This document shows, in pieces, positions 2,307-31,785 of a DNA stretch of 39,269 nucleotides. Origin of the DNA: a virus; IMG/VR virus record IMGVR_UViG_3300036835_000531, positions 1-39,269 of that record; one strand, written 5' to 3'. The stretch's first letter is position 1. Each line of letters begins with the position of its first letter. The notes beneath the pieces were generated by a model, which had not been told where the DNA came from, did not search any database, and saw only the letters and a program-made list of their open reading frames with translations. A program made the translations under genes and the position numbers.

Positions 2307-2711
2307 CTAGGCGGCGGCCGCCTTCCGGGCGGCGCGCGTCTCCTCGAGGTAGTCCATCCACTGCCCGGACCACTCGGCCCAGATCGCCGGGAAGGTGACC
2401 TTGTCCTCGGCCTTGGCGCCGAGGAAGGCATCGCAGAGCCACTCGAACTCGGTGCCGTTCAGCTCGATCTCCAGGGTCTCGGCATCGAGCGCCCGCTTGA
2501 TGCCGCGGAAGATCTTCTGCTCCTTGCGCGGCAGTTCCTGGCCGTAGAGCTTCTCGACGGCCGTCAGCAGGAAGCGCTCGCTGAGACTCCGGCGCCACTG
2601 ATCCAGCGACTGGCCGGCCTGGCCGGCGCCGCCCTCGAGGATCAGCCGCTCCTCGGCGGGGCGGAGCGAGTAGTTGAGGTTCAACTTGACGACGACGGTT
2701 TCGACACTCAT
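2307..2711 (-). CDS. Unknown 134-residue protein, last gene of late operon
   Basis: Not recognised. It begins MSVETVVVKLNLNYSL and is mixed beta/alpha with an acidic, Trp-rich middle (FEWLCDAFLG, WAEWSGQWMDYLEE) and an Ala/Arg tail. There is no signal peptide or membrane helix. The start is fixed by GGAGG six bases upstream. It follows the tail fibre gene by about 40 bases and is the last gene of the late transcript, the place where fibre-associated or host-interaction proteins often sit (inference). Confidence 0.6.
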   Translation of the reverse strand: MSVETVVVKLNLNYSLRPAEERLILEGGAGQAGQSLDQWRRSLSERFLLTAVEKLYGQELPRKEQKIFRGIKRALDAETLEIELNGTEFEWLCDAFLGAKAEDKVTFPAIWAEWSGQWMDYLEETRAARKAAAA

Positions 2712-2752
2712 GCGGCGCCTCCGAATCTGCCGGGTGAGGGTACGCAGCCGGC

Positions 2753-5700
2753 TCACGCGATGGCGTGCTCGAGCCGCTGCAGGCGGAGCTCGTGATCGGT
2801 GAGCCGCCGCTCGTGGTCGAAGAGATACAAGTAGGCCTCCTCCAGCGTCGCCAGGATGGCATCACCCCCGTCGAAGAGGCCGCGCGTCGGCCCGAGGGCG
2901 TACAGATGCGGGAACTCCCAGTGCTCGCGCACGAAGGCCTCGACCGCCGGCAGGGGCTGGAGCCCCGGATAGCTGCCGGCGCCCTCGCGGTCGGCGTACC
3001 GCTCGATCGCGCCCGTGAAGGCGTCCTCGAAGACGTAGCCGGGGTTGGTGTAGGCGGTGCCGTTTTTCTGGATGTTGCCCGACACGTTGATGGAGCCGAC
3101 GCCGGGGTCGGTGGCGGGGCTGCCGACCTTGATGCCGCCCGGCCCGGCGCCCCCGATCTGCAGCAGGACGGTGCCGTTGGCCTTCTTGATCAGCAGATCG
3201 GTGCCCGTCTTGATGAAGGCGTCGGTGAAGGCGGTGGCCGTGAGGTCCATGAACACGCGGGGCGCGCCCAGCTGGTAGAACACCGTGCCGTAGCCGACGA
3301 TGAGCATGCCGATGTCGTTGTTGTCGTCGCCGATCGGGAACGGATCGTTGACCAGGTTCATCCCGCGCACGTCCCCGAAGGCCCGCGCGCCGTACCGCGC
3401 GCTGGTGTTGATCTCGATGCCGATGAGGCCGCTGTTGGTGCCGTTGTCCTTGACCTGAAACCACCCGCCCCAGGCGTAGCTGTGGCGGACCATGCAGCTG
3501 CCCATCGCGCGGATCCCGACCACGCCGCCGTCGCTGCCGTCGACGATGCCCTTGCTGTCCTGATTGGTCGTCGTGACCATCTCGGCGAACGCCTCGAGCG
3601 CGCACACGGTGCCCGTCGTGTGCACGTCCTGCAGGCGCGCGTAGGCCAAGATGGCTGCCGGCGCGAGCTCGGTGCCGGTCTCGCCGCCGAGCGTCGAGCG
3701 CGAGATGAGGCTGGCGAAGAGCGCGGGCTTGAGATCGGTGCTCGACGCCGTGGTGTAGCCCTTGTGCACCTGCAGCATGCCGGGCCGCGGATCCTCGATC
3801 GGCATGCTCATGAAGTAGTTGCCGTTCTCGATGAAGAGGCCCGCGGTCGCCCCGGCCGGCCCGGTGGGAAAGATGTAGGACATCCACTGCGAGCGCGCCG
3901 CGGCCCCCAGGCCGAGATGGCCACTGCCGAGCAGCTGCATCGAGGCGACGGTGTTGGGGCCGCCGGCCACGAGGCTCGAGGCCGCCTCGATCAGGGGGCG
4001 CGTGTCGCCGTGCCCGAGCACGCCCTCGGTGAACACGATGCCGCGCGCGTTGGTGGAGTTCATCGACAGCCGCAGGCCCTGCGTCCACGTCGAGCCCGCG
4101 TTGCCGATCTGCGTGTACAGACACGCGGCCTGGCCGCCCTGGCCGTCCCAGTCGCCGAACTCGCCGGCGAAGCCATTGTTGGGATAGGCCGTGCGGCCCG
4201 CGGGGCGCTCGCTGCGGATGATGATGCCGGTGATGGCGTTGCCGCCGCCCGAGTGCGTCGAGCCGATGCCGCCGATGAACCCGCCGTTGTCCGGGGGCGT
4301 GTAGGAGTCGACCTCGATGGAGCTCTTCATGCGGGTGCCGGCGACGGTCTCGCCGAGGCGGGTGACCACGAAGAGCCCGGTCTCGCCGTTCTGGCTGTAG
4401 TCGGAGTTGTCGATCCAGAGGCCCTTGCGCGCCGCGCGGATCTGCAGGTTGTTCGAATTCTCGCCGCCCGTGCCGAGGGTGTCGAGCCAGATCGCGGCGA
4501 CCGAATCGAAGCGCGCCTCGCGGTTGACGCTGAAGTGCCCCGTGGTGGAGACGCTGCCGCCCTGATCGATGTACAGGCGGTCGGCGGCCGAGCCGCCGAC
4601 GTTGGTCTGGATCCCGAAGCGAAACGTCTGATTGTTGCCGACCCGGTAGGTGTAGAGCACGGCGCCCAGGGCGATCGTGCTCGGGTCCTGCACCACCATC
4701 GCGATCGCCGTGCCGTTGCCGTCCTGGGCCGTGCCCGTCGTCTTGCCCCAGACCGTTAGGGCGGCCGGCGAGGTGTTGACCGTGGACTGCACGCGCACGG
4801 CGACCACGCCCTCGTTGCCGGTGCCCGTCGCCGTCAGCGCGCCGAGGTTCGTGTTCGCATACGCGCCGACGATGAGGGCGTGCAGCTGCGGGTCGTAGTG
4901 CAAGTTGCTGACGTCCTGGGTGAGCTTGCCATCGAGGCCGCCGTAGGGCACGGCCTGATAGGTGAACGTGCCGAGGCCGGTGCCGCCGCCCGCTCCCCAG
5001 AACAGATTGGCGCTGCCATCGGTGGTGAGGACCTGGCCGGCGGTGCCGACGGTCGTGGGCAGGATCCAGATCACGGACTGCTCGACGGTCTGCGGCCCGG
5101 TGAGCCCGACAAAGTGGCTGTTGTCCGGCGTCATCCACAGAAGCTCGGTCGTCTGCGTGGGGGCCGCGCCCGGCAACACGATCGCATGCGCCGTGCCCCA
5201 GTCCTGAATCCGCAGGGCCACGCGCATGAGCCCGTGGTTGGTCAGCGCGATGTCGAGGTAGGCGTTGTCGTTCTGCCCCGTGCGCGCCACGTAGATATGG
5301 CCCAGCCAGTTGCGCTGGCCCGTGGCCGTCTCGTGGTTGAAAAAGCCGATGCCCGGCCCGTGGCCGTCGTGCACCGTCGTCGCGCGCGCGAGGAGCACCG
5401 TGTTGATCAGGGGGCTGTTGCCGGCCGCGTTGTCGTAGAAGACCTCGAGCGGGAAGGTCGCGTGCTCGAAGGCCTCGCCGACGATCAGGTTGCCCGCGAA
5501 GCGATGCTCGCCGCCGAGGGTCCAGATGGCGATGTCGTTGACCGGCAGGGGCGCGGCGTGCGCGGGGATCAGCAGGCCGATGCCGTCGGTCAGGCTGCCG
5601 ACGTGGCCCTGGTTGCGGAGCGCCGTGAGGGCGGCCGCGCGGCCGACGGTGCCCGCGATCACGCGGTACATGCCCGTGATGCCGAGGAGCTGCGAGACGG

Positions 5701-7138
5701 TCGAGCCCGCGAGGGCCTGGTCCGCCGTGACGACCAGCCCCTGGACGGCGCCCGAGGAGAAGCCTCCGGCGCCGGTGGCCCCGTCGTGCATGATCCCGAA
5801 CACATGCCCGTAGGCGACGTTGGCGAAGCCGCCGTTGATGCTCGACACGCGCAGGTCGGAGAGATTGAACACCTGCGGGGCATTCGGGCCCGCCGCATCC
5901 ACGTTCAGGCGGCCCGTCCACTGGTTGGGGCCGCCCGCCCCGCCGAGGCCCGGCCCGATGTTCATGTATTGCGAGACCGGGGCGAAGAGCGTGAGCAGCC
6001 GGGGGTTCTCCTCATTCCACGTGAAGTTCACGCTCCCCGTCAGCGAGCTCGTGCCGTTCCAGTACGCCACCTGGCCGGGCACCCCGTTGCCCGTCACGCC
6101 GCCTCCGGTGGCGCCGCTCGGCGTCACCCAGAACAGATGCCCCGTGGCGTCGGTGGCGAGCACCTGGCCGTTGGTGCCGTCGACCGATGGCAGGACGTAG
6201 ATCGTGTCCGTGGCGCGCTGGTCCGGCGCCTTGAAGCCCACGAAGTGCAGCAGGCCCGTGGTCGGGTGCGCGTAGAAGCGAAGCTCGCCGGTCTCCTCGA
6301 CGTTGGGCCCCCAGGGAAAGAGCCGCACGCCGCCCTGGCCATCGGTGGACACCGAGCTCACCGTGACGAAGTCCGTGAAGCCGGGCGCGCCCTCGAAGGT
6401 GAGCACCGGGCGGCGCGGGGCCGTGCCCGGGAGCGTGGCCACGAGCTGGTTGGCGATCGGGCTCCGGTAGACGACGCCGCCCGCGGGCATGGTGCTGCCG
6501 TCGTTATTGGTGCCCCCGCGCGTGAGCGGCAAGAGCCCCTGCCAGGCGACGGTCAGGGCGTTGAGGCCGAGGGTGATGAACAGCCGGATATTGGGGTCGC
6601 CGAGCAGTCCGATGTCGCCCGTCGCCCCGCCGAGCGAGCTCACGCCCGCCGTGCCGCCGCCGCCGCCGGTCCCGCTGACCTCGACCGCCTCGAGCGCCGT
6701 GCCGGCGGTGTTCCAGCGAATGAACTTGCCCGCCCCCGGCATCGGGAAGGCCACGCTGATCCCGGTGAGATCGTCGGTCGGCGTGAACTGCACGGCGCGG
6801 TCGAGCTGTGTCTGCAGCTCCTGGATCAGCATGACCACGCGGTCGAAGCTGTCCTCCTCGACCTCGGCGGCGTGGATGTCGTGCTCGAGATATTCGGTCG
6901 TCTGGGTGCGCGGGCTGTTGCGCTCGGCGACGATCGACGAGCCCGCGCCGGGCGCCAGCGCGAAGACGAACGTGCCGCCCGTCGGCTGCCCGAGCCCCGT
7001 GAGCACCACCGGGGTGATCTTCTCGTCGACCCAGACCACGAGGTCGAGCGGGTGATCGACCCGGAACGGGTAGGTGTACGTCGTGGTGACACCGTCCGCG
7101 AGATAGGCAATGCGCGTCGTGAAGATGTTGACGGTCAT
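2753..7138 (-). CDS. Tail fibre protein with T7 gp17-like N-terminus
   Basis: A 1461-residue fibre that should bind the host receptor. Residues 1-150 match the podovirus tail-fibre anchor seen in T7 gp17 (TTTYTYPFRVDHPLDLVVWV, then VAERNSPRTQTTEYLEHDIH and the helix VMLIQELQTQLDRAV), which attaches the fibre to the tail. The long shaft is Gly/Thr/Asn-rich beta sequence with repeated modules such as NGQVLATDATGHLFWVTP and AGQVLTTDGSANLFWGAG. The C-terminus has an acidic/aromatic segment (GYVFEDAFTGAIERYADREG) and ends in a short coiled coil (HERRLTDHELRLQRLEHAIA). No S74 chaperone motif is seen. GGGAGGTGAG precedes the ATG. T7 gp17 is 553 residues, so this fibre is much longer. Confidence 0.88.
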   Translation of the reverse strand: MTVNIFTTRIAYLADGVTTTYTYPFRVDHPLDLVVWVDEKITPVVLTGLGQPTGGTFVFALAPGAGSSIVAERNSPRTQTTEYLEHDIHAAEVEEDSFDRVVMLIQELQTQLDRAVQFTPTDDLTGISVAFPMPGAGKFIRWNTAGTALEAVEVSGTGGGGGTAGVSSLGGATGDIGLLGDPNIRLFITLGLNALTVAWQGLLPLTRGGTNNDGSTMPAGGVVYRSPIANQLVATLPGTAPRRPVLTFEGAPGFTDFVTVSSVSTDGQGGVRLFPWGPNVEETGELRFYAHPTTGLLHFVGFKAPDQRATDTIYVLPSVDGTNGQVLATDATGHLFWVTPSGATGGGVTGNGVPGQVAYWNGTSSLTGSVNFTWNEENPRLLTLFAPVSQYMNIGPGLGGAGGPNQWTGRLNVDAAGPNAPQVFNLSDLRVSSINGGFANVAYGHVFGIMHDGATGAGGFSSGAVQGLVVTADQALAGSTVSQLLGITGMYRVIAGTVGRAAALTALRNQGHVGSLTDGIGLLIPAHAAPLPVNDIAIWTLGGEHRFAGNLIVGEAFEHATFPLEVFYDNAAGNSPLINTVLLARATTVHDGHGPGIGFFNHETATGQRNWLGHIYVARTGQNDNAYLDIALTNHGLMRVALRIQDWGTAHAIVLPGAAPTQTTELLWMTPDNSHFVGLTGPQTVEQSVIWILPTTVGTAGQVLTTDGSANLFWGAGGGTGLGTFTYQAVPYGGLDGKLTQDVSNLHYDPQLHALIVGAYANTNLGALTATGTGNEGVVAVRVQSTVNTSPAALTVWGKTTGTAQDGNGTAIAMVVQDPSTIALGAVLYTYRVGNNQTFRFGIQTNVGGSAADRLYIDQGGSVSTTGHFSVNREARFDSVAAIWLDTLGTGGENSNNLQIRAARKGLWIDNSDYSQNGETGLFVVTRLGETVAGTRMKSSIEVDSYTPPDNGGFIGGIGSTHSGGGNAITGIIIRSERPAGRTAYPNNGFAGEFGDWDGQGGQAACLYTQIGNAGSTWTQGLRLSMNSTNARGIVFTEGVLGHGDTRPLIEAASSLVAGGPNTVASMQLLGSGHLGLGAAARSQWMSYIFPTGPAGATAGLFIENGNYFMSMPIEDPRPGMLQVHKGYTTASSTDLKPALFASLISRSTLGGETGTELAPAAILAYARLQDVHTTGTVCALEAFAEMVTTTNQDSKGIVDGSDGGVVGIRAMGSCMVRHSYAWGGWFQVKDNGTNSGLIGIEINTSARYGARAFGDVRGMNLVNDPFPIGDDNNDIGMLIVGYGTVFYQLGAPRVFMDLTATAFTDAFIKTGTDLLIKKANGTVLLQIGGAGPGGIKVGSPATDPGVGSINVSGNIQKNGTAYTNPGYVFEDAFTGAIERYADREGAGSYPGLQPLPAVEAFVREHWEFPHLYALGPTRGLFDGGDAILATLEEAYLYLFDHERRLTDHELRLQRLEHAIA

Positions 7139-7142
7139 CCGC

Positions 7143-12005: not shown

Positions 12006-12006
12006 G

Positions 12007-13758
12007 CTACCGCTGGCCTCGCTTCGGGCCCGTGAGTGACGCGCCCGGGACCGCCGTCGTCGCGTTGGTGGCGCGGCGCCCCATCTCGACGAGGATCTTT
12101 CGCATCTGGAAGAGGTACTGGCGGTTCGTGGTGTACCGCTCCTGACTGAGGCGGCCCTTGTCGCCTGCCAGGCGGGCCATCGCCTCGTCCACGCGCTGTA
12201 GCCCCGTCAGACGCTGCGGGTCCTGGGCGGGGTCCGGCAGCGTCACCTGATACGGGCTCTCGAGTGCGGCATTCAGGCTGACGAGGTACTGGCTCGTCTT
12301 CGCCGCCACGGGCGCAAGGAAGGTCGCCATGTGCTTGTCGAGCCACTCGCGCGCGTCCAGGCCGTTGGGATTCGTGGGCCGCGTCTCGAGCGACAGTCGC
12401 CGCTCGAACTCGGCGGTCATGGTGGATGAGACGAAGTCGATGTCGGCCGACAGCGCGCCCTTGGTCCGTAAGAGCTCGCGCCCAGTTTCGCGCACCTGGC
12501 TCTGGATGCGCGCGGCCTGCTCCATCGCGGGATCCTTCTGTTGCCCCTGCGCCTCGAGCCGACGCATCTCGGTATCGAGGTGGCGCATGTACTCCGCGTG
12601 GCGGACGGCTGTGAGCCGCTCCTCGTCGAGTGCCCGGTTCACCTCGTCGCCAAGGGCCGCGACCTGCGCGGCCGTCCGGGGCGCCACGCCGTAGACGCGC
12701 GGCTGGAGGGATTTCACCGTGCTCGGGTCGTCAACGAGTTTCGGGTTGCTCTGCTTGTTCAGGCGCTCGATCCACGTGAAGGACTCCGCCGGCGTCAACT
12801 CGCGCTTGTCCGGGCTCGCCATCTCCACGAGCTGCGGCGCGGTCAGGGGCGGCCCTGCGTCGGGGAGCCCCAGATAGCGCTGCAGCACGTTCCACTGCGT
12901 CTTGAGGTGCTCGTACGCCTGCTGCGCGTCGAGCTCGGCCTTGACCCGCTGCTCGGCCTTGGCGTCGAGGTTGGCGAAGTGCTCGAACTCGGCGCGGGCG
13001 TGGTTGGCCAGCTGTCCCTGCACGTCGGGGTCGAGCCGATAGACGCTGCCCGCTCGCAGATCGTCGATCACCGTCTCGTCGCGCCCGGCGATTCGGCGCT
13101 GGATCTGGCCGATGTCGACGTCGTGCGTGTAGTCCCGCCAGAGCCGCTGTTGCTCCTCGGGCGTGAACGCTCCTCGCTGCGACTTTATGAGTCCCTCGGC
13201 GATCCGGTCGACGTAGGGCTGCTCCTCAGGCGAGTTGGTGGGGCCCGAGCGCTTCAGGCTTTCGAGCTGATCGAGGACGGCCCCGCGTTGGTCCTGCACC
13301 CGCAGGCGATTGGCGTAGGCGAGTACCTCCTCCTGATGCGTGAGGCGCCAGGTCTCCAGGAGCTTGTTCGCGGCGGCGCTGGCGCGGGGATTCAACCCGG
13401 GCAGCACCTGGCTGCGGCGCGTCGCATACTCGCTGGCCCACTGATCGGCGTAGGTCGCGCCGTCGGCCGGGGGCACCGACTGCCCGTTGTCGTCGGTATA
13501 GCCGAATTTCAACCGTTGGCTGACGCCGGCCATGTAGTCACGAACGTTAGAAAAGGCGCGCGTCGCATCGGTCGCATCCTGGAGGCTTTGCAGGCGCGCG
13601 CGGGCGGCGCCCAGGATGGTGGCCGCCTTGACCCCGAGATCCTCGAGCTGCCCGCCACCCTGCACGAGCGCCGCGCCGACGGGCGAGCCGCTGGGCACCT
13701 GGGCCTCCGGGAAGCCGTAGGGCACCTCCTGGGTCGGCGTGTAGCCCGGCAGTTTCAT
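12007..13758 (-). CDS. Internal virion protein (T7 gp15 position)
   Basis: A 583-residue, mostly alpha-helical and highly charged protein with no signal peptide or membrane helix. Helical stretches include LEDLGVKAATILGAARARLQ near residue 40 and many heptad-like segments up to the C-terminus (FQMRKILVEMG). It lies between the gp14-like and gp16-like genes, so by T7 synteny it is an inner-core protein ejected into the cell envelope with the DNA. The assignment rests on position and helical composition rather than a recognisable domain. Its ATG overlaps the previous stop (ATGA), and its TAG is one base from the next ATG, so the three genes are translationally coupled. Confidence 0.72.
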   Translation of the reverse strand: MKLPGYTPTQEVPYGFPEAQVPSGSPVGAALVQGGGQLEDLGVKAATILGAARARLQSLQDATDATRAFSNVRDYMAGVSQRLKFGYTDDNGQSVPPADGATYADQWASEYATRRSQVLPGLNPRASAAANKLLETWRLTHQEEVLAYANRLRVQDQRGAVLDQLESLKRSGPTNSPEEQPYVDRIAEGLIKSQRGAFTPEEQQRLWRDYTHDVDIGQIQRRIAGRDETVIDDLRAGSVYRLDPDVQGQLANHARAEFEHFANLDAKAEQRVKAELDAQQAYEHLKTQWNVLQRYLGLPDAGPPLTAPQLVEMASPDKRELTPAESFTWIERLNKQSNPKLVDDPSTVKSLQPRVYGVAPRTAAQVAALGDEVNRALDEERLTAVRHAEYMRHLDTEMRRLEAQGQQKDPAMEQAARIQSQVRETGRELLRTKGALSADIDFVSSTMTAEFERRLSLETRPTNPNGLDAREWLDKHMATFLAPVAAKTSQYLVSLNAALESPYQVTLPDPAQDPQRLTGLQRVDEAMARLAGDKGRLSQERYTTNRQYLFQMRKILVEMGRRATNATTAVPGASLTGPKRGQR

Positions 13759-14255
13759 AGACCGGTGTCGTACAGGGCGTAGGGATCGCGAGGCACCGCG
13801 GTCGTCAGCGCGGTCCGGCCGAGCCCCGTCAAGAGCGTGCTGCCGGCGCCGAGGGCCCCCGCCGTCAGGTACTGGCCGGCCCGCTGGCGCAGCAGCGAGG
13901 CCTGCTCGAGCTCGCCGAAGCTGCGCACCTGCCCCGTGTAGCGCGCCCGGAGCGCGTCGAGCTCCGCCTGCGAGGCCGTGTCCAGCAGCGTCAGCAGCGG
14001 CGTGCCCTCGGTCGTGACGCCCGTGCCCCCGAGCAGCGCCCGCTGGGCGGCCATCACCTGCCGGCTGCGCTCGCGGGTCTGCTGCTCGGCCGCGGCGCCG
14101 GCGATCTGGGCCTGCTGGGCCTGCTGCTCGGCGACATCGGCCTGCTGCTGGGCCTGGTGCTGCTGCTGGATGCCGCTGTAGACCGCACCGCCGGCCGACA
14201 CGGCCGCCCCGGCCACGGCGGCGACCGCCGCGGCGATGGCTGCGTACTCGGCCAT
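13755..14255 (-). CDS. Internal virion protein (T7 gp14 position)
   Basis: A 166-residue protein. It has an N-terminal Ala-rich hydrophobic helix (YAAIAAAVAAVAGAAVSAG, residues 4-22), then a Gln/Ala coiled coil (QQQHQAQQQADVAEQQAQQA), then a helical region ending LYDTGL. The size and the hydrophobic N-terminus plus Gln-rich helix are usual for gp14-like core proteins of podoviruses, which form the first outer-membrane part of the ejection channel in T7. GAGG lies about ten bases before the ATG. It overlaps its neighbours by one base (TGATG) upstream and four bases (ATGA) downstream. Confidence 0.72.
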   Translation of the reverse strand: MAEYAAIAAAVAAVAGAAVSAGGAVYSGIQQQHQAQQQADVAEQQAQQAQIAGAAAEQQTRERSRQVMAAQRALLGGTGVTTEGTPLLTLLDTASQAELDALRARYTGQVRSFGELEQASLLRQRAGQYLTAGALGAGSTLLTGLGRTALTTAVPRDPYALYDTGL

Positions 14256-14722
14256 CAGGGAAACCTCACGTAGTTGATGCCGGCCTCGCCCTGGGGGCCC
14301 CAGAGCGGGCGGCGGCTCTCGATCGCGAAGCCGAGCCGCTCGAGCCACCGGCGCGCGCGAGGGTCCTGCTCGATGGCGATCGCCTCGATGCGCCGCAGCT
14401 GATGGGCGGCCGCCAGCGCGTCGAGGAAGCGCCGCACCGTGCGATGCACCATGACCGGATGCCGGCGGCCCTCGGGCGTCAGCACGGCCCACGCGCTCGC
14501 CAGATGCGGCCAGGGCATCATGAGCCCCGCGCAGGCCAGGATGTGGCCGTGCCACCACCCTGTGAACGCCGGCCCGCTCTCGGCGTACTCCTCGGCCCAG
14601 CGGTGCGGGTGGAGATGGCGCGGCGAGGGAAACTGCCCCGCGATCTGGTCCCAGATGGCGAGGTAGTCGGCGGGCTCGAAGTCGCGCACGTCGAGGTAGT
14701 GGCCCTTCGCCGTGGCGACCAT
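14255..14722 (-). CDS. GNAT-like protein of the T7 gp13 type
   Basis: A 155-residue protein that reads as a GNAT-fold acyltransferase. It has the start VRDFEPADYLAIWDQI, a central strand GHILACAGLMM, and the late motif ARRWLERLGFAIESR typical of the acetyl-CoA-binding half. The T7 gp13 family falls in this fold class, and this gene occupies exactly the gp13 position, between tail tubular B and gp14. In T7, gp13 is needed for virion assembly although it is not a major virion component; enzymatic activity here is not shown. One-base TGATG overlaps join it to both neighbours. Confidence 0.72.
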   Translation of the reverse strand: MVATAKGHYLDVRDFEPADYLAIWDQIAGQFPSPRHLHPHRWAEEYAESGPAFTGWWHGHILACAGLMMPWPHLASAWAVLTPEGRRHPVMVHRTVRRFLDALAAAHQLRRIEAIAIEQDPRARRWLERLGFAIESRRPLWGPQGEAGINYVRFP

Positions 14723-17313: not shown

Positions 17314-18017
17314 CAGGTGAACGCGACGCGGGGCTGCACCAGGGCCGTCGTGATGATCCGCCGCGGGGAGTGCTGCTGGCCGTCCTTGGCGCGGGCGGAG
17401 CGGAGCTTGAGCTCCGCCAGCTGCGCCTGCTGCTGCGCGAGCGCCGGCTTCTGCGTGATCGGATAGGCCAGGCGCGCCGCGAGCTCGTAGGTGACGGCGG
17501 TCACGAAGGACGGCGGCCAGTAGCCCTCGGGAATGCGCGCCGTGTAGCGAATGGCCACGGGGCTGTCATCGGCCACCAGGAGCTTGCCCTCGATCGCCCA
17601 CCGATCCCCGTCGCCGTGCGTCTGCACGTCGAGGCTCGTCTCGCGCACGCGCAGGCAGTCGGCGGGCAGCTCATACCCAAATTTGTAGTCCCAGAGGACG
17701 TGCTCGAGCTCCGTGACCATCGGTAATTGTTGGACGCGGCGGGAGGCGAACCCCCAGTCCTCGCCGATCAGGAGATCCTCGACCACATCGAGATAGAAGC
17801 GCTGGCACACGCGGGCGCGGTCGGTCGCCTCGTCCAGGCTCTGGATGCCCCGATCCCCGAGCAGCATGAGGGCGCTCGAGCAGATCGACACGGGGTCGTG
17901 CGGCGCGACGCGCGCCGGCGGTCCCGGCGCCACGCGCCCCGAGACCGGCGCATTGATGGCGAGCGGAATGAACGGACTGGCGGCGCCGCCACTGGGGGGA
18001 TCGGCCCCGTTACTCAT
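17313..18017 (-). CDS. Tail tubular protein A (T7 gp11-like adaptor)
   Basis: A 234-residue head-to-tail adaptor. After a disordered 40-residue start come the family features: VSICSSALMLLGDRGIQSLD, then helix ARVCQRFYLDVVEDLL, the strand-rich middle (FGYELPADCLRVRETSLDVQ) and the late helices VTAVTYELAARLAYPIT and QQAQLAELKLRSARAKDGQQ. In T7 a ring of gp11 joins the portal to the gp12 nozzle. It is close to the usual length (T7 gp11 is 196 residues). It overlaps by one base with both neighbours. An alternative GTG/ATG further upstream is not needed. Confidence 0.88.
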   Translation of the reverse strand: MSNGADPPSGGAASPFIPLAINAPVSGRVAPGPPARVAPHDPVSICSSALMLLGDRGIQSLDEATDRARVCQRFYLDVVEDLLIGEDWGFASRRVQQLPMVTELEHVLWDYKFGYELPADCLRVRETSLDVQTHGDGDRWAIEGKLLVADDSPVAIRYTARIPEGYWPPSFVTAVTYELAARLAYPITQKPALAQQQAQLAELKLRSARAKDGQQHSPRRIITTALVQPRVAFT

Positions 18018-19831
18018 CAGCCCCTCGATTGCGGCGTGGTCGCGATGATCGGCTGCGCCGCCGCATTGGTTTGCACGGCCGCCACCCAGGCCTCGCGGAT
18101 GTCGTCCTCCTTCGTGACCGTGAGGAGGCCGCCGGCGATGGCCCAGCGGTTGCGGAGAAAGCGGAGCGCGTTCAGCACCGAGCGCGGCGCCTCGCCGCTC
18201 ACCTGCGTCCAGTCGCGCGTGAGCAGCGTGTCGGCGATGTCCACGGCCGAGGGCGAGGGCGAGGTCGCGGCGGCCTGGAGCAGCAGGCCCGCGGTGCCGG
18301 GCTGCAGATGCCCCACGATGTACTCGTCCCACACGGCCTTGGCCACTTCCCCGGCACTCGGCGGCGGCGGGCTCGGCCCCGACGGCACCGCCGCGTTGGC
18401 GAGCAGCAGGCCCGTGGTGCCGGTCGCCTGGTGGTCGCCCGCGACCTCGTCCCAGACGGCATCGGCAATGGCGGCGGGATCGCTGCCCGCCGAGGAGACC
18501 GTCTGCGCCAGGCCCATCGAGCCGGCGGCCTGGTGGTCGGCGGCCGCCTCGTCCCAGACGGCATCGGCGATCTGGGGCGCCGTGGGCGAGCTGGCGCCCG
18601 CGTCAGTGAGCGCCTGGCCGGTCGACCCGGCCGTGGTGTGCGCGGCGGTCGGCTCGTTCCAGACCGCGGCGACAATGTCCGCCGCCGTCGGGGAGGCCGC
18701 CGCGCCGTCGACCAGCGCCTTGCCCGTCGACCCGGCGCCGAGATGGCCCGCGGTGGGCTCGTTCCAGACCCCGGTGACGATCTGCGCCACGGTGGGCGGC
18801 GGGGTGCCCCCGTCAGTCAGGGCCTTGCCCGCGGTGCCAAGCGTCTGATGCCCGCTCGTCGGCTCCTCCCAGACCGCGGCGGCGATCGCGGCCGGCGTGG
18901 CGGCCGAGGCGCCCGCGTCGATCAGGGCCTTGCCGGTGGTGCCCCCGGCGGTATGCGCACTGGTGACTTCGTTCCAGACGCCATTGGTGATCTGCGCCAC
19001 CGTGGGCGCCGCGACGGCCCCGTCGGTGATCGCTCGGCCGGTCGAGCCCGCGGTCTGATGGCTGGCCGTGGGCTCGTTCCACACGCCGGCGACGATGCTC
19101 GCCACGGTGGGGGCCCCGGCGAGATCCGTGAGCGCCTTGCCGGTCGAGCCCGCGCTCTGGTGCCCGCTGGTCGGCTCGTCCCACACGGCATCGGCGATCG
19201 ACAGCGCCGTCGGCGCCGCGATGGCGCCGTCGGTGAGGGCCTTGCCCGCCGAGCCGCCGGCCTGGTGACTGGTGGTGGGCTCGTTCCAGACCGCGGCGGC
19301 GATGGTGACGGCCGTGGGCGCCGTGAAGGCGGCGGCATCGGTGAGCGCCTTGCCAGCACTCCCCGCCGTCTGGTGAGTGTTCGTGGGCTCGTTCCAGACG
19401 GCCCCGGCGATGGCCGAGGCCGCCGGCGGCGCGATGGCCGCCTGCAGCAGCGTGGCGCCCGTGGTGTTCGCCGTCGCGTGGTTGATCGCGAGCTCATCCC
19501 AGACCTGATTCGGGATCGGCGTGTACGGGTCGAAGCCGACGAGCTGATGCACGGCGATGAACGTGCGCACGCCGGCCTTCGTGAAGCGCACCCAGAGAAA
19601 GCCGCCGCCCGAGAGCTCGGCCTGGGTGAACTCGTAGTAGTAGTAGCCGTTGCCCATCTCGGTGACGGGCCCCGCGGCGTTCGCCTCGGTGCTGCCGTTG
19701 GAGGAGACCTTCACGTCGCCCGCGACGAAGGTGATGCCCGCCTTGGGGGTCTTGCCGTCGACGTCGTCGACGAGATACACGGGAAAGCGCCGCCGGGTCG
19801 AGACCGCTTCGTTCTGCTTGAACTGGAGCAT
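18017..19831 (-). CDS. Tandem-repeat structural protein (12 x 35-residue VWxEP repeats)
   Basis: A 604-residue protein. Residues 1-109 are a beta domain (RRFPVYLVDDVDGKTPKAGI; GNGYYYYEFTQAEL) of the type found in phage fibre or appendage proteins. Residues 110-535 are twelve tandem repeats of 34-41 residues with the core VWNEPTxxHQxAGSTGKALTD. Residues 536-604 are a conserved end (RSVLNALRFLRN, then GGLLTVTKEDD). Similar modules occur in uncharacterised phage proteins near tail or head-fibre genes. It lies between the 363-residue protein and tail tubular A, a place T7 leaves empty, so it is probably an added head or tail appendage (inference). TGATG overlaps on both sides. Confidence 0.7.
   Translation of the reverse strand: MLQFKQNEAVSTRRRFPVYLVDDVDGKTPKAGITFVAGDVKVSSNGSTEANAAGPVTEMGNGYYYYEFTQAELSGGGFLWVRFTKAGVRTFIAVHQLVGFDPYTPIPNQVWDELAINHATANTTGATLLQAAIAPPAASAIAGAVWNEPTNTHQTAGSAGKALTDAAAFTAPTAVTIAAAVWNEPTTSHQAGGSAGKALTDGAIAAPTALSIADAVWDEPTSGHQSAGSTGKALTDLAGAPTVASIVAGVWNEPTASHQTAGSTGRAITDGAVAAPTVAQITNGVWNEVTSAHTAGGTTGKALIDAGASAATPAAIAAAVWEEPTSGHQTLGTAGKALTDGGTPPPTVAQIVTGVWNEPTAGHLGAGSTGKALVDGAAASPTAADIVAAVWNEPTAAHTTAGSTGQALTDAGASSPTAPQIADAVWDEAAADHQAAGSMGLAQTVSSAGSDPAAIADAVWDEVAGDHQATGTTGLLLANAAVPSGPSPPPPSAGEVAKAVWDEYIVGHLQPGTAGLLLQAAATSPSPSAVDIADTLLTRDWTQVSGEAPRSVLNALRFLRNRWAIAGGLLTVTKEDDIREAWVAAVQTNAAAQPIIATTPQSRG
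18227..19504 (-). repeat. Twelve tandem ~105-bp coding repeats
   Basis: In-frame repeat array in the structural gene, encoding residues 110-535. Unit lengths in residues run 35, 36, 35, 34, 35, 35, 35, 35, 35, 34, 41, 36. The middle units (2-9) are most alike and the last three most diverged, as expected when unequal recombination expands the centre. It is not a CRISPR array, because units have no unique spacers and keep the frame. Confidence 0.9.
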
Positions 19832-22634: not shown

Positions 22635-22769
22635 GCCCGGGATCCTCCGGCGAAGCTCAGGGTGCAAGCCTCTACGGGAGGTAGCCGGGGCCCATCCCCG
22701 ATCCCCCTCACGCCCGTCACGTGGGCGTTCCGTCCCGGCCGGGCCCTCGCGGGTAACCCGGCAGCTGTC
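22635..22769 (-). promoter_or_regulatory. 135-base leader of the capsid gene with stem-loop
   Basis: The longest untranslated gap in the late operon. On the minus strand it contains a perfect six-base-pair hairpin (arms 22710-22715 and 22723-22728, seven-base loop), a small CGGG/CCCG hairpin, and the GC-rich palindrome CCCGGCCGGG, then the ribosome-binding site of the capsid gene. No T-run follows, so a simple terminator is unlikely. An RNA-processing or stabilising element, or a promoter I cannot recognise, is possible. Confidence 0.4.
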
Positions 22770-22973
22770 CTACGGGGCGCTGGACCCCGGACGGGCCGCC
22801 GCGGGCGCACTGGGCGACGGCGGCGGATACGGCGGCGTCAGCGTGGGATTCGGCAGCGCCTGCCCGAGCAGGGTCGTGTAGGCGATCTGCTGCGGCCCCT
22901 GCTGGATCGGCGTCGCGGGCGGCGGCGCCGGGGGCGGCGGCGGCGTGGGCGGAAACGGCAGCACCTCGGGCAT
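22770..22973 (-). CDS. Small proline-rich protein between scaffold and capsid
   Basis: A 67-residue protein: MPEVLPFPPTPPPPPAPPPA, then a short helical part QQGPQQIAYTTLLGQALPN, then more Pro/Ser/Ala. It should be disordered apart from the middle. The ATG overlaps the scaffold stop (TGATG), so expression is coupled to the scaffold. Function unknown; a peptide acting with scaffold or capsid during assembly would fit the position. Confidence 0.55.
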   Translation of the reverse strand: MPEVLPFPPTPPPPPAPPPATPIQQGPQQIAYTTLLGQALPNPTLTPPYPPPSPSAPAAARPGSSAP

Positions 22974-23827
22974 CACGCGCCCTCCATCGATGGCGGATAG
23001 GCCGTCCGGTAGAGCTCGAGCAGGGCCTCGTGCGCCGGCTTGTGCTGCGGGTCAGCGGGGTTGTTCGCCGGGTGCCGGCGATCGGCGCGGATCTCGCGAA
23101 TGCGCTCGAGCGCCTCGCTCTTGCTGGGCCCGTCGGTGCGGCCGTCGATCAGGCCGTCCTCGGCCGCCGTCTCCCCGAACTGGGCCACGAACTTGATGAA
23201 ATCCGGGTGGTCGCCGAGGCCCGTCGTCTCGAGGACCTCGACCAGCCCCGGCGAGCCGCGGGCCTGGATCACCCGCGAGGCCAGGGTGACGCGCCGGGCG
23301 AAGGTGGCATCGCCCCACTCGCGCTTGAGGGCCTCCGCGCCCTGGCGGTAGCCCTGCTTGGCCTGATCGAGCTGGTGCTGCTGCCAGTCGGCGTAGGCCG
23401 AGACCAGCGCCTTGCCCTGCTCGGCCGTGATGCCGTGGCGATGGAACACGCCGCGGAACGTCTCAAGGGCCTGCGGGTCGAGCGCCAGGTCCTCGGGCAC
23501 GTCGAAGGCGTAGTCGCTGGGCGTCTTGGGCACGCCGAGCTTCTCGCGGAAGGCCGCCTGCTGCTCCGGCGTCGCCTCCGGCCCCGGGATCTGCACGCTG
23601 CGGCCCTGCATCTTCTTGGTCTCGACGAAGGCCTGCGCGAGCGCGCCGACGTCGCGGAAGGTCTCGAGGCTCTTCTCCTTCCGGAGGAGCTCGGGGAGGC
23701 TGGCGCGCCAGTCGGGGGTGTCGGGCGCCGCGGTCGCGGGAACCGGGGCCGTCCTGGCCTCCGGCGGCGCGCTGGCGGGCGCGGGCGGGGCGGCCGCGGG
23801 GGCTTCGGTGGCGACCGGGCCGGCCAT
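22973..23827 (-). CDS. Scaffolding protein (T7 gp9 position)
   Basis: A 284-residue protein. It has an Ala/Pro-rich disordered N-terminus (1-38), then the conserved podovirus scaffold block WRASLPELLRKEKSLETFRD, ALAQAFVETKKMQG, and AAFREKLGVPKTPSDYAFDV. A long helical, charged region follows (EQGKALVSAYADWQQHQLDQ; ALKREWGDATFARRVTLASR), and a basic C-terminal segment. Scaffolds drive prohead assembly and leave before DNA packaging. It lies between the portal-side Bbp19-like gene and the capsid, as T7 gp9 lies between gp8 and gp10. One-base overlaps join both sides. Confidence 0.82.
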   Translation of the reverse strand: MAGPVATEAPAAAPPAPASAPPEARTAPVPATAAPDTPDWRASLPELLRKEKSLETFRDVGALAQAFVETKKMQGRSVQIPGPEATPEQQAAFREKLGVPKTPSDYAFDVPEDLALDPQALETFRGVFHRHGITAEQGKALVSAYADWQQHQLDQAKQGYRQGAEALKREWGDATFARRVTLASRVIQARGSPGLVEVLETTGLGDHPDFIKFVAQFGETAAEDGLIDGRTDGPSKSEALERIREIRADRRHPANNPADPQHKPAHEALLELYRTAYPPSMEGA

Positions 23828-26634: not shown

Positions 26635-26648
26635 GGGCTGGATCCTCC

Positions 26649-26867
26649 TCAGCGGCGGGTGACGTGGGTGGATTGGTCGATGCCCGGGTAGCGGCGGCGC
26701 ACGGCGCCGCGCACGCGAGCCTTCTCCTCAGGCGTGCCGTAGGCGCTCACGCGGGCCAGCGCGTTGCGGGCGTGGCTCTCGTCGGCAATCGGGTAGCGGC
26801 GCTGCCCGGGGAACACGAAGCTCGAGCTCGGCAGCTTCTTGCGCGCGGCGGCGGTCAGCTCAGCCAT
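26649..26867 (-). CDS. Small DUF6582-like protein
   Basis: A 72-residue protein with the segment LPSSSFVFPGQRRYPIADES followed by HARNALARVSAYG, and a basic end. This pattern (FxFPxxRxYPIxDxxHARNALARV) is common in small phage proteins and in prohead-associated domains, with unknown function. AGGAGG precedes the ATG by seven bases. It lies 14 bases upstream of the Pro/Trp protein gene. Confidence 0.65.
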   Translation of the reverse strand: MAELTAAARKKLPSSSFVFPGQRRYPIADESHARNALARVSAYGTPEEKARVRGAVRRRYPGIDQSTHVTRR

Positions 26868-26879
26868 CAAGGCGCCTCC

Positions 26880-27152
26880 TCACTCGTCCGGGCAGGTGAT
26901 CTGCACCTTGGCGGGCGCCGCATGATGGGCGAAGCTGTCGCGCATGACGTAGCGCTCGCGCTTGGAGCCCTGCAGGCAGTAGGCGCGGGCCAGCTCCCCG
27001 GCGTCCGCCCCGCGCTTGAACCAGACGTAGATGTTCGCGGACTCGCGTTCCTCCGGCATGCCCACGCTGATCGCGCCGGCGCCCGTGGTGGTCGCCGAGA
27101 ACGGGCTGCAGCCGCCGAGCGACAGAGCCAGGAGCCACCACGCGCGCCTCAT
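26880..27152 (-). CDS. Putative lipoprotein
   Basis: A 90-residue protein. Residues 1-15 form a short signal (MRRAWWLLALSLGGC) with two Arg, a hydrophobic core and a Cys in a lipobox-like context (LGGC), so it is likely lipid-anchored and exported. The mature part is polar with two further Cys (YCLQGSK; ITCPDE) that may form a disulphide. Being in the late operon, it could be an outer spanin-like lysis lipoprotein or a virion-independent exclusion protein, but it lacks the Pro-rich sequence of Rz1, so I do not call it a spanin. Its ATG overlaps the upstream TGA by four bases (ATGA). Confidence 0.6.
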   Translation of the reverse strand: MRRAWWLLALSLGGCSPFSATTTGAGAISVGMPEERESANIYVWFKRGADAGELARAYCLQGSKRERYVMRDSFAHHAAPAKVQITCPDE

Positions 27153-27343
27153 CCCCCATAGCGGCCCGTGCTGGCCGTCTTGCGCCGCTTGCGGTCGGCG
27201 GCGAACTCGGCAGGGGTATGCGTGGCGCCGGTCTCGAGGTTCTTGGCCTCGTTCACGGTGCCGCCCTTGGTGAAGTGCAGGCGGACCTTCTTGCCGGTCG
27301 AGGTCGTCATCGTGCGGTAGCGTCCGCCGCCGGGGATCGGCAT
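27149..27343 (-). CDS. Small basic protein of unknown function
   Basis: A 64-residue, Lys/Arg-rich protein (GKKVRLHFTKGGTVNEAKNL; FAADRKRRKTASTGRYGG). It has a short beta part and a basic tail that may bind nucleic acid. No family recognised. It overlaps the next gene by ATGA and the previous one by TGATG, inside the terminase-to-portal gene run. Confidence 0.55.
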   Translation of the reverse strand: MPIPGGGRYRTMTTSTGKKVRLHFTKGGTVNEAKNLETGATHTPAEFAADRKRRKTASTGRYGG

Positions 27344-27543
27344 CAGCGGAGCCCTCGCAGGCAGTCGAACCGCGCCATGCGCTCGAGCACCACGGTGGCC
27401 GCCGCGTCGTGGAGCATGGCGCCCACCGGGCCGCGGTGCGGCTCGAGCCAGATCTGCTCCCACGGCCGGATGCAGAAGCGCTCGGCCATGGTCAGGTCGT
27501 CGACCTTGAGGCGCCGCGCGAGGTCCCAGATCTGCGGGGGCAT
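27343..27543 (-). CDS. Small protein downstream of large terminase
   Basis: A 66-residue alpha/beta protein (MPPQIWDLARRLKVDDLTMA; AAATVVLERMARFDCLRGLR) with no membrane helix, not recognised. TGATG overlaps join it to the large terminase gene upstream and to the basic protein downstream. It may help packaging, judged by position only. Confidence 0.55.
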   Translation of the reverse strand: MPPQIWDLARRLKVDDLTMAERFCIRPWEQIWLEPHRGPVGAMLHDAAATVVLERMARFDCLRGLR

Positions 27544-29087: not shown

Positions 29088-29370
29088 GCGGCTTCCACCC
29101 GAGCCACTGGCCGAGCAGCTCGGCGGCGCGAAGCTGGACCGAGCGGTCCGCGTCGCTCATCGCGCCCTGCACCACTTCGAACGCCCGCTGCACGTGGGCG
29201 AATGTGAGGCCACCTCGCCGGTACATGTCGTCGAGGCGGGCATCGCCGGTGACGATGATTTCCGCCTGACGCACGCGTAGCATAGGCCTGACTTTTCGAG
29301 GCTTTCGGACACCTGTCTTATGTATATCCTCAATCGGCGCGGCCGAAGCCGCCGGATCTGTGTCAGCCAC
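28912..29370 (-). CDS. Probable terminase small subunit
   Basis: A 152-residue protein directly before terL. The core is helical: LRVRQAEIIVTGDARLDDMY, RRGGLTFAHVQRAFEVV, and SVQLRAAELLGQWLGWKPRE. Position, size and a helical DNA-binding-like core fit a small terminase, which recognises phage DNA and recruits the large subunit; similarity is not strong enough for certainty. The GTG at 29370 is chosen because AGGTGA stands five bases upstream; an ATG at 29415 lacks a good site. The last 58 codons lie inside the terL coding sequence in a different frame, so its C-terminus may be under odd constraint. Confidence 0.65.
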   Translation of the reverse strand: MADTDPAASAAPIEDIHKTGVRKPRKVRPMLRVRQAEIIVTGDARLDDMYRRGGLTFAHVQRAFEVVQGAMSDADRSVQLRAAELLGQWLGWKPRERDSTPDRVAAVSVTLVSAAGADAGTQLPRGRLEVHLAGNGHAAGIPPAGEREQSSD

Positions 29371-29659
29371 GGCCCTCACCTTTTCGCTTGACAACCAGGA
29401 GGGGGAAGAGGTCATACAGCCGGTCCATATCCTGCTCGGTCAGCACGCGCGTGAGGCGCCGCGACGGCCAGTGATGCACGTAGGTGGGCTCGCTGAACCA
29501 CGCGGGGTGCCGGTAGAGGACCTTGCGGATGGTGCCCGGGGCGCGCAGCAGGCGGAGCGAGGCGGCCTGCACCGTGTAGAGGCGGTCGCCCGGGGCGCGC
29601 TCGGGCACCAGCTCGGTGCGCGTGGCGCCCTGCTTGACGCGGCCGCTGAGCTTCGTCAC
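29363..29659 (-). CDS. Small basic protein before terminase (possible DNA-binding)
   Basis: A 98-residue basic protein. Its middle YTVQAASLRLLRAPGTIRKV then LYRHPAWFSEP reads like a helix-turn-helix, and its end has RRLTRVLTEQDMDRLYDLFP. This could be a DNA-binding packaging accessory. It starts at GTG 29659, overlapping the stop of the holin-like gene (GTGA), and its end overlaps the terminase small-subunit start by eight bases. Not recognised as a known family. Confidence 0.55.
   Translation of the reverse strand: MTKLSGRVKQGATRTELVPERAPGDRLYTVQAASLRLLRAPGTIRKVLYRHPAWFSEPTYVHHWPSRRLTRVLTEQDMDRLYDLFPLLVVKRKGEGRG
29381..29394 (+). promoter_or_regulatory. Distant exact copy of the 14-bp switch motif
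   Basis: TTTTCGCTTGACAA lies antisense within the late operon, at the end of the small basic gene just upstream of the terminase small-subunit start. It contains TTGACA, but no good -10 box follows (nearest GTCATA at 17 bases). It could be a repressor-binding site within the late operon or an antisense promoter. Confidence 0.4.
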
Positions 29660-29850
29660 CGCAGAACGCCGATGCCAAAGTGGGCCGACACGGTCCACAG
29701 GACCGCGATCAGGAGGATGATGCCCACCAGCGCCAGGAGCGGCACATGCAGCGGCGCGGGGAAGAACGTGTCGACGAGATACTTGGCGACGTAGGCCACG
29801 ACCAGGATCACCACGAGCACGAGCAGCACGAAGATCAGGGAATTGAGCAT
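29656..29850 (-). CDS. Small two-helix membrane protein (holin-like)
   Basis: A 64-residue protein made almost wholly of two membrane helices: SLIFVLLVLVVILVVAYVAK (4-23) and PLLALVGIILLIAVLWTVSA (about 37-56), joined by a turn with VDTFFPAP. It resembles the short bacterial/phage 'Thivi_2564-like' membrane proteins. Size, topology and a place next to the terminase genes, where T7 gp17.5 holin also lies before gp18, make a holin role plausible. GGAGG is five bases before the ATG. No endolysin is adjacent. Confidence 0.65.
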   Translation of the reverse strand: MLNSLIFVLLVLVVILVVAYVAKYLVDTFFPAPLHVPLLALVGIILLIAVLWTVSAHFGIGVLR

Positions 29851-29887
29851 GGAGGCCTCCAGGGTGACGACTGCTCAGCGCACGTCG

Positions 29888-30307
29888 TCAGCAGCGCGCC
29901 CGCGCTTGGCAGGGTGGGCAGACGCCGCAATCCACCGGCAGCCACAGCAAGGGGTCGCGTGGATCGAGGATTCGCTTGCGCGGGCGGTGGCAGGGCTTCG
30001 TGCTGATCGCGCCTGGCACGTTTTCCCACAACACCTCGACCGGCCCGCCGGCGAGCCCGTTCCAAGGACGTTCGATGAACCATGAGGGCAGCTGTCGGCG
30101 CTCGTCGATGGAGGCCGCGCGATGCAGACAGAGCGTGACGTTCATGCGAAAGAGCCGCTCCTGTGCGGGATCGCCGACGTCCGTCAGCACGCGACGAAGA
30201 TGGCTCGTCGCCTCGGCTTTCAGTGCAGGCGACCAGCGCGGCACCGGACGGATGCAGCCACTCTCACGTCGGCTAATCGATGCCAGCCACACGGGCTGAC
30301 CATTCAT
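29888..30307 (-). CDS. Cys-rich protein of unknown function
   Basis: A 139-residue protein. It has a clear conserved look at its end, DPRDPLLWLPVDCGVCPPCQ, where CxxCxxC may bind metal, plus further Cys at GCIRP, TLCLHRA and KPCHRP. The middle PSWFIERPWNGLAGGPVEVL is Trp/Pro-rich. No signal peptide. No family recognised. The ATG begins nine bases after the stop of the 40-residue gene; no good Shine-Dalgarno sequence is visible, so translation may be coupled. It is early in the late operon, beside the holin-like gene. Confidence 0.55.
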   Translation of the reverse strand: MNGQPVWLASISRRESGCIRPVPRWSPALKAEATSHLRRVLTDVGDPAQERLFRMNVTLCLHRAASIDERRQLPSWFIERPWNGLAGGPVEVLWENVPGAISTKPCHRPRKRILDPRDPLLWLPVDCGVCPPCQARARC

Positions 30308-30316
30308 CGCATCGAG

Positions 30317-30439
30317 TCAGCCGTTGAAACTCAACCCGTACTCCCACGGCGGTTCCGCCCAGCGCAACGGAGCATCGCCCGCGCGCCCGATCAGCGGGTT
30401 CTGAAGCGCAGCGTGCTGCAAGTCGTTCAGCGGATTCAT
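30317..30439 (-). CDS. 40-residue microprotein
   Basis: A very small gene coding MNPLNDLQHAALQNPLIGRA then GDAPLRWAEPPWEYGLSFNG. Support comes from GGAGGTG four to five bases before the ATG and an ATGA overlap with the stop of the 449-residue gene, the same coupling used throughout this operon. It fills what would otherwise be a 128-base gap. The Trp/Pro-rich second half could be a binding peptide. Function unknown. Confidence 0.55.
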   Translation of the reverse strand: MNPLNDLQHAALQNPLIGRAGDAPLRWAEPPWEYGLSFNG

Positions 30440-31785
30440 GGCACCTCCACGAAGCGCCGCGTCGAGCCATCCGGCGCGGTGACGGTCCATGTGGGCTGAC
30501 TCGGCGGCGGCGTCGGCTCACTGCCATTGACTAGGAGCTGCGCAGGCACCTTGACAAGGAGGGCATCGAGGCGGTCGCCGCCGAGATTCGTGGTCCACAG
30601 GAAATACTCGCCGGTCACATCGACGTTGCCCTTGGGCAGCTTGGCGTAGTCGTCGCTGCCGCCGCCCGGCGCGTCGAGATCGGTGAGCACCGGGGCCACC
30701 ACGAGCACCTCGAGGCTGCCGTCGAGACGGAAGGCGATCACCTCGTTGTTGCGCGGCGCCGCCGTGCGACTGGCGCCGGAGCCGAGCACGTACTGCCCGT
30801 CCGGCGCCTCGCCGCGCGCGTTGCAGTGCGAGAGATGCCCCAGCTGCGCGTCCCAGGACGGCGTGTCGTACACGAGCCGACCCTGCGGCGCGGCCGCCGG
30901 ATCGAACATCCACAGGCGAAACGCACTCGGCTGCGCGTTCCAGTTATCGGCCGCGACCATGTAGCCGTAGCCGTTGTCCGAGTGCCCAGCCGCGCCCTCC
31001 TCGTCGAGGATCACGCGCGGCTCGCCGGCGCCGCCCACGGCGTAGATCAGGTTGTCCTCGCCGTTGCGCCCGTCGAGGTTGTCCTTGGTGAGGAGCCACG
31101 CGCCCGCCTGATCGATCTGGCACTCGTCGTAGGCCCCGCGCCGCGGGTATTCGCGCCAGGGCTGCGGATCGCCCTCGAGGACCACGACGCTCGCCTCGGG
31201 CTGGTAGGTCGTCCCATCCTTGAGCGTCGCCGAGTGCACGGCATCGGTGGCGGCGGTGTGCCACTGCCATAGCACCTTGCCCGGGCGGAACGCGGCCACA
31301 TCGACCACGGTCCAGACAGTCGCGGGCCCGAGCCCCTGCACCAGCGGCCCCACGTCGACGCGATACAGGCGCGTGAGATCCGAGGCGTAGAGAATCGTCG
31401 GCCACTGCGCCGACCAGTACCAGCCCTCGCCGGTGCTCCACGACAGCGCGTGCTCGGGCGGGAAGATGGGCCCCAGCGGCGTGACCTGGTCGGTGGCCTT
31501 GTCGACCGTCCAGAGGCTCGGCCCCTGGCCGCCGCGGGTGCGGTCGGCGCAGAGGAACGCGAGCAGCACCGGCTGTCCGACATGGGCGTTGAGCGCGCGC
31601 CAGTACGAGTACCCCGTGGGGTTCAGCGCATCGGCGCCGCCCATGTCGCGGCCGTTGGTGAGGCGGATGCCGGTGGTGCCGTAGGGCGCCGGGAAGCTGA
31701 AGGGGCCGCGATCGGGGAGGGTGAAGCGCACGGGCGACCGGACCTGGGTGGACGAAGCGAGCTCGAGAAAGCCGCCGGGATTCAC
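30436..31785 (-). CDS. Beta-propeller-like protein, first late gene
   Basis: A 449-residue protein with repeated strand-rich blades and Trp/Asp turns (GPSLWTVDKATDQVTPLGP; TILYASDLTRLYRVDVG; EVIAFRLDGSLEVLVVAPVL; GEYFLWTTNLGGDRLDALL), like TolB/WD-type or sugar-lyase-associated propellers. Segments WDAQLGHLSHCNARG and GGGSDDYAKLPKGNVDVTGE look conserved. It has no signal peptide. Residues 425-449 carry a Pro-rich hinge and a short tail. It could be a virion appendage binding or degrading surface glycan, or a cargo gene; neither is proven. The start is GTG 31785 with a weak upstream site. Confidence 0.6.
   Translation of the reverse strand: MNPGGFLELASSTQVRSPVRFTLPDRGPFSFPAPYGTTGIRLTNGRDMGGADALNPTGYSYWRALNAHVGQPVLLAFLCADRTRGGQGPSLWTVDKATDQVTPLGPIFPPEHALSWSTGEGWYWSAQWPTILYASDLTRLYRVDVGPLVQGLGPATVWTVVDVAAFRPGKVLWQWHTAATDAVHSATLKDGTTYQPEASVVVLEGDPQPWREYPRRGAYDECQIDQAGAWLLTKDNLDGRNGEDNLIYAVGGAGEPRVILDEEGAAGHSDNGYGYMVAADNWNAQPSAFRLWMFDPAAAPQGRLVYDTPSWDAQLGHLSHCNARGEAPDGQYVLGSGASRTAAPRNNEVIAFRLDGSLEVLVVAPVLTDLDAPGGGSDDYAKLPKGNVDVTGEYFLWTTNLGGDRLDALLVKVPAQLLVNGSEPTPPPSQPTWTVTAPDGSTRRFVEVP

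Follow-up and report, generated by a model that had tools for sequence, protein, structure and literature searches.

No endolysin recognisable by profile in a GC-rich phage genome with overlapping ends

Gene content and relatives of the genome

The window, by which we mean the whole stretch of DNA analysed, is an IMG/VR virus record of 39,269 bases with a GC content of ~71%. Its two ends share 127 identical bases, base 128 being different, which is most simply read as an overlap produced in the assembly of a circular, complete genome of 39,142 bp. The genes for head, tail and packaging form a full set, and the portal, capsid, nozzle, tail tube A, terminase large subunit (TerL) and integrase were identified by profile. 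As the genome reads as circular and complete, truncation is rejected as the reason for the missing endolysin. The ORF that spans the junction of the circle resembles a helix-turn-helix repressor on inspection by eye and was rejected as a lysin. This repressor-like ORF and the tyrosine integrase suggest that the phage is temperate, and its genes read as those of a podovirus-like phage. An 85-aa ORF with a hydrophobic N-terminal stretch (1839-2096, plus strand) lies 3' of the integrase gene and runs against the late operon.

The late operon occupies the minus strand from 31785 to 2307 (Table 1). PHROGs profiles assign to it the portal, capsid, scaffold/protease-like, tail tube A, nozzle, gp14-like, gp16-position and fibre proteins, and the nozzle profile also matches the solved Tail Nozzle 8ck1 (E 7.5e-126). 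A 604-aa late protein (18017-19831), with no significant profile match, contains ~35-aa repeats that appear in the DNA as 105-base repeats in ~11 copies.

Table 1. Positions of the features of the window considered in the text
Feature	Position	Strand	Basis
Terminal direct repeat	1-127 (copy 1), 39143-39269 (copy 2)	none	Exact identity of the ends
Tyrosine integrase	495-1640	+	Pfam Phage_integrase, E 1.2e-17
149-aa ORF, last gene of the late operon	2307-2756	-	Overlaps the fibre stop by 4 bases
Tail fibre, T7-fibre-like N-terminus	2753-7138	-	PHROG 1640 tail protein, E 2.1e-20
gp16-position internal virion protein, 1620 aa	7143-12005	-	PHROG 6651 internal virion protein, E 1.2e-14
gp15-position protein, 583 aa	12007-13758	-	Gene order and weak similarity
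gp14-like internal virion protein	13755-14255	-	PHROG 418, E 1.4e-24
Tail nozzle (tail tubular protein B)	14722-17313	-	PHROG 376, E 1e-151
Putative lipoprotein, 90 aa	26880-27152	-	Lipobox LGGC by eye
98-aa protein beside the terminase genes	29363-29659	-	51% over 65 aa to a G001 protein
Two-helix membrane protein, 64 aa, putative holin	29656-29850	-	Hydropathy 3.25, coding score 0.70 per codon
139-aa Cys-rich accessory protein	29888-30307	-	8 viral-contig relatives
449-aa propeller, oligogalacturonate-lyase-like fold	30436-31785	-	Predicted structure

The portal, capsid, nozzle and internal virion genes of the window are homologous to, and in order with, those of podoviruses of the HTVC010P/Carin1 type. 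The pelagiphages, Carin1 (Cobetia) and YeP4-6 (Yersinia) carry the portal, scaffold/protease-like, capsid and tail tube A genes in similar order, as they do the nozzle, the gp14-like and the gp15- and gp16-position proteins and the fibre. However, protein identity to this type is only ~27-40%, and the GC content of the window is 71%. Other relatives are distant as well: a tblastn search with the nozzle matched 178 phage records and the capsid 93, every one below 60% identity. Among viral contigs, alignment-based patterns for the portal retrieved three relatives (the best, L017/G001, at 44%), and scans with single proteins gave five for the portal, six for the nozzle and none for the capsid. 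A prophage relative was sought in genome contigs with TerL and portal, and none was found.

The closest relative found, G001 (IMGVR_UViG_3300043331_001419), has 39,378 bases, a GC content of 72% and a 97-base end overlap. Its nozzle is 42% and its portal 45% identical to those of the window (44% for the portal in the viral-contig scan), but the two genomes differ in terminase large subunit and accessory genes, which show no match, and G001 has a cluster of holin-like, lipoprotein and TM genes behind the fibre. This cluster (L019:7220-8730) encodes a holin-like protein of 67 aa, a lipoprotein of 125 aa and a TM-plus-helical protein of 172 aa, with no recognised endolysin. The 98-aa protein of the window is encoded between the holin-like gene and the terminase genes, and its G001 homologue, which by eye looks DNA-binding, lies upstream of the G001 terminase gene; with a helix-turn-helix seen by eye, the 98-aa protein is probably DNA-binding and not lytic.

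Searches for a peptidoglycan hydrolase

Pfam was run on 20 proteins singly and on 58 ORFs pooled, NCBIfam on the same 58 ORFs, and PHROGs on 30 proteins singly, with all matches listed, and on the 58 ORFs pooled, with the best 25 of 40 families listed. The GNAT-like gene at 14255-14722, the genes at 17313-18017, 22770-22976 and 22973-23827 and most early genes were covered by the pooled scan alone. No peptidoglycan hydrolase, holin or spanin was found in these scans of the genes, for the pooled PHROGs scan among the matches listed. Pfam was also run on the 150 longest (at least 62 aa) of 179 further ORFs of at least 50 aa, and no family was matched at E<=0.01. Six-frame searches for SLT, Amidase_2, Phage_lysozyme, Peptidase_M15_4, Hydrolase_2 and Glyco_hydro_108 found none of the six in the window. 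An NCBIfam beta-glucosidase match in an early 254-aa ORF (E 0.0011) scored 16.9 bits against a cut-off of 478.5 and was discarded as chance.

Hydrolases of other phages served as controls. The SLT (E 1.4e-22) and Amidase_3 (E 1.1e-19) of Carin1, the lysozyme of YeP5 (E 1.0e-25), the GH108 enzyme of G004 (E 1.3e-22) and the Hydrolase_2 of the L041 phage (E 1.9e-14) were all found; the M15 match in HTVC010P, in a gene annotated as peptidase M15, was weak and below the cut-off. Carin1 has SLT and Amidase_3 domains, YeP5 has a lysozyme as well as an Rz by annotation, and an M15 peptidase is annotated in HTVC010P, whereas no endolysin is recognisable in the window. Since the scans of the window are empty and the same methods detect hydrolases in relatives, we confirm that no hydrolase is recognisable in the window at the profile level. 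An earlier note on this DNA had reported no recognisable endolysin after reading the sequence, and its observation is borne out by the Pfam, PHROGs, NCBIfam and six-frame searches. It had proposed sensitive profile searches of each protein of no evident function as a check, and these gave no peptidoglycan-hydrolase match among the proteins of the window.

The absence extends to the virion. The 1620-aa gp16-position protein matches no Pfam family and carries no transglycosylase domain, just as the earlier note had judged. A six-frame search with PF01464 for a virion transglycosylase of the T7 gp16 or Carin1 gp33 type gave no match in the window and E 1.4e-22 in Carin1. The 583-aa gp15-position protein has no SLT domain, although Carin1 has one at that position.

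Motif regexes applied to all six frames gave nothing convincing in the window. When the revised motif set was run as a control, it found known enzymes in G004, HTVC010P (L016), L033 and L037. It failed to detect the lysozyme of YeP5, the two enzymes of Carin1 and the Hydrolase_2 of L041, and the negative result from the regexes therefore weighs little.

In G001, a Pfam scan of 55 genes found no hydrolase among 17 families, and all six families searched in six frames were empty. In the Manatee Spring genome MW202572, six-frame searches with five of the hydrolase families found nothing. As G001 and MW202572 are also without a recognised hydrolase, the absence recurs in the neighbourhood of the window and is not peculiar to it. 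That two genomes with overlapping ends both lack a recognised hydrolase suggests a trait of the lineage rather than one damaged genome. By comparison, one GH108 and one Tlde1_dom member were found when 73 genes of G004 and G005 were scanned.

Candidate genes for lysis

The earlier note concluded that lysis must use an unrecognised protein. As the genome reads as complete, this is still the likeliest reading, but two of the three candidates that it put forward are disfavoured by our results (see the next section). We would place a different gene first, the 149-aa ORF at the end of the late operon, whose coding score of 0.57 per codon is strong. In G004, the GH108 endolysin gene (43896-44372) starts at the stop of a fibre-type gene (41731-43899), with which it overlaps, and so lies directly behind the tail fibre; the same slot in the window holds just the 149-aa ORF. 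In Carin1, the amidase lies three genes past the depolymerase tailspike. It is this shared position with G004 that puts the 149-aa ORF first, and by position alone it is the best remaining candidate for the endolysin. The argument is a positional one: the 149-aa protein and the G004 endolysin have no sequence similarity, and the 149-aa protein matches none of the GH108, GH24, SLT, amidase, M15 and Hydrolase_2 family profiles. It has no significant profile or PDB relative and no relative among 50,697 phage records or in the viral-contig scan, and the gene that occupies the post-fibre slot of G001 is not similar to it either. Against this candidate, the membrane/lipoprotein cluster behind the G001 fibre has no recognised hydrolase, so that the slot need not carry an endolysin in this lineage, and the lysis genes of HTVC010P and YeP5 are located elsewhere.

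Besides the 64-aa protein, the hydropathy cut was passed by segments of larger virion proteins and by a short ORF on the plus strand, antisense to a late gene. Of the small ORFs above the cut with a positive coding score, only the 64-aa protein is convincing as a membrane protein. To this extent the holin-like two-helix protein described in the earlier note holds up, but it matches no holin profile and has no phage relative. The lipoprotein that was also described is indeed present, with a lipobox that is seen by eye and was not flagged by the automatic filter; it has no family in Pfam or PHROGs and no phage relative. It would at most be outer-membrane-spanin-like. An inner-membrane partner was not found in the hydropathy scan of the late strand; the earlier note had likewise seen no recognisable spanin pair. 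Phages without recognisable spanins are not rare: in a published survey, none was found in 91 of 677 phages (PMC6139136).

We tentatively favour the explanation that this podovirus-like, temperate phage with a complete genome belongs to a rare lineage and would lyse its host by the ordinary holin-plus-endolysin route. Its endolysin would have diverged beyond the reach of present profiles, or would represent an undescribed family, and would lie among the few unassigned late genes, most likely as the 149-aa ORF, the start of which falls within the stop of the fibre gene. The holin would then be the 64-aa membrane protein, while the 90-aa lipoprotein might be a component at the outer membrane. 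We infer the need for a wall hydrolase, as we do these three roles. Other endolysins that sequence comparison fails to recognise are known: the catalytic domain of the Enc34 endolysin is assigned to a family described as without recognizable sequence similarity (PMC8943055).

It is rather unlikely, though conceivable, that the hydrolase is encoded elsewhere in the window, as part of the 583-aa or the 1620-aa virion protein, by a small gene between TerL and the portal, or by a short unscanned ORF. The gp15-position virion protein of Carin1 does carry its SLT domain, and the 1620-aa protein is 25% identical to a 1143-aa G001 protein, its first ~900 residues having no counterpart in the main alignment. 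Yet neither the 583-aa nor the 1620-aa protein has a Pfam, PHROG or significant PDB match other than to an internal-virion-protein family. Six small genes of 64-174 aa sit between TerL and the portal, but they have at most matches to families of unknown function.

That lysis proceeds with no hydrolase at all, a small membrane protein or other protein blocking wall synthesis or triggering host autolysins, is improbable. The two end-overlapping genomes without a recognised hydrolase, as well as the one strong small membrane protein of the window, would fit such a mechanism, which would resemble the single-gene lysis of small phages. On the other hand, no inhibitor is evident in the sequence, single-gene lysis is known from ssDNA and ssRNA phages, and the tailed relatives having a recognisable lysis gene use enzymes.

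It is unusual for a complete phage to lack a recognisable endolysin, although such cases do occur in uncultured phages. When nearly 200,000 uncultured viruses were surveyed, 2,628 putative endolysins were reported (PMC5968864), so that non-detection is the rule in metagenomic records, although most of these records are presumably fragments. A literature search for phages lacking an identifiable endolysin led to PMC11092137, in which several lysis genes are identified. The likeliest case is a divergent lysis gene of a rare lineage, a real but modest finding and not a demonstrated new mechanism. Since non-recognition of endolysins is common in distant metagenomic phages and no new mechanism is shown, we consider the interest of the case moderate to low. 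We regard it as unlikely that the lineage of the window and G001 lyses its hosts through no described endolysin family, be it by a new small hydrolase (the 149-aa protein) or by a hydrolase-free mechanism, which would then operate in a tailed dsDNA phage. If a new hydrolase family were involved, the profile libraries used for phage annotation and for antibacterial enzymes would be missing that family; otherwise, this would be one more phage endolysin that has drifted past sequence recognition. As the genome is compact and complete with few unassigned late genes, the search for the lysis protein is tractable, with about half a dozen genes to consider.

The Cys-rich protein, the propeller and the lipoprotein

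The earlier note named the 139-aa Cys-rich protein, the propeller protein and the lipoprotein as candidates for the lysis protein. The last of these is unlikely to be a hydrolase, since it is just 90 aa long, and what is left of the proposal is at most the spanin-like role described above.

The 139-aa gene adjoins the putative holin gene, a position that would suit an endolysin. Its relatives in other phages argue otherwise. Eight of 15 pattern matches in viral contigs are relatives, with 45-58% identity and conserved Cys and His, and in the six of these eight loci that were listed the surroundings are those of early or accessory genes. In three of the six (L031, L033 and L037), the relative is followed, at no more than a few hundred bases, by a secreted SLT-like gene that is distinct from it; a Pfam SLT scan that covered L033 and L037 placed the former above and the latter below the cut-off. 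As the family travels without lysis genes, and in some phages near a separate hydrolase, the 139-aa protein is unlikely to be a hydrolase, and as a lysis candidate it is disfavoured. Its predicted structure (mean pLDDT 50.6) is too poor for use. Codon use had suggested that the ORF is not a gene, a possibility that was rejected once the relatives were found. The GC3 of the gene is 0.76, against ~0.9 in core genes, and with a family common to unrelated phages it looks recently acquired. A conserved partner ORF of 45-47 aa, seen by eye ahead of the relative in five of the six loci and resembling the 40-aa ORF at 30317-30439 of the window, was not upheld, as phmmer with the 40-aa sequence as query matched none of them.

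The AlphaFold model of the propeller protein (pTM 0.76, mean pLDDT 73.6) best matches oligogalacturonate lyases (Foldseek E 1.8e-9; structural match, VIA: Z 25.7, rmsd 3.8, 343 residues aligned). The best structures, 3pe7 (Z 25.7) and 3c5m (Z 25.3), which we take to be of family PL22, stand apart from the next propellers at Z ~21 and have the same predicted whole-length fold as the 449-aa protein, but identity is 10-14%, and no sequence or profile match to the 3pe7 and 3c5m chains was found. The model thus indicates a polysaccharide-lyase-like propeller with a putative activity of this kind. A literature search found no paper in which oligogalacturonate lyase, bacteriophage and propeller occur together. 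A polysaccharide lyase fold might seem to recommend the protein as a lysis enzyme; however, it matches no wall-hydrolase profile in Pfam or PHROGs, and one of its five viral-contig relatives (38-68% identity), that in L041, adjoins a genuine and separate Hydrolase_2 gene. The fold and this neighbour disfavour the propeller as a lysis candidate. That the endolysin is the 139-aa protein, the propeller or the lipoprotein is, on the whole, highly improbable.

Least probable of all is a host without a conventional peptidoglycan wall, in which an endolysin would not be needed: the genome-contig scans are empty and no host is assigned, but T7-type ejection proteins, which indicate diderm bacteria, are present at the gp14, gp15 and gp16 positions, and the named relatives infect Proteobacteria, which are walled.

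The Hydrolase_2 gene in L041 (9065-9712), a 69-kb phage, lies directly 3' of the propeller relative. Small membrane ORFs are found upstream, and the whole looks like a lysis cluster. In other phages, genes read by eye as terminase large subunits adjoin the propeller relative (L038, L039) or lie near it (L040, L042). L039 also encodes a relative (phmmer E 1e-13) of the 64-aa protein at 27149-27343 of the window, and its possession of both genes suggests a shared gene pool.
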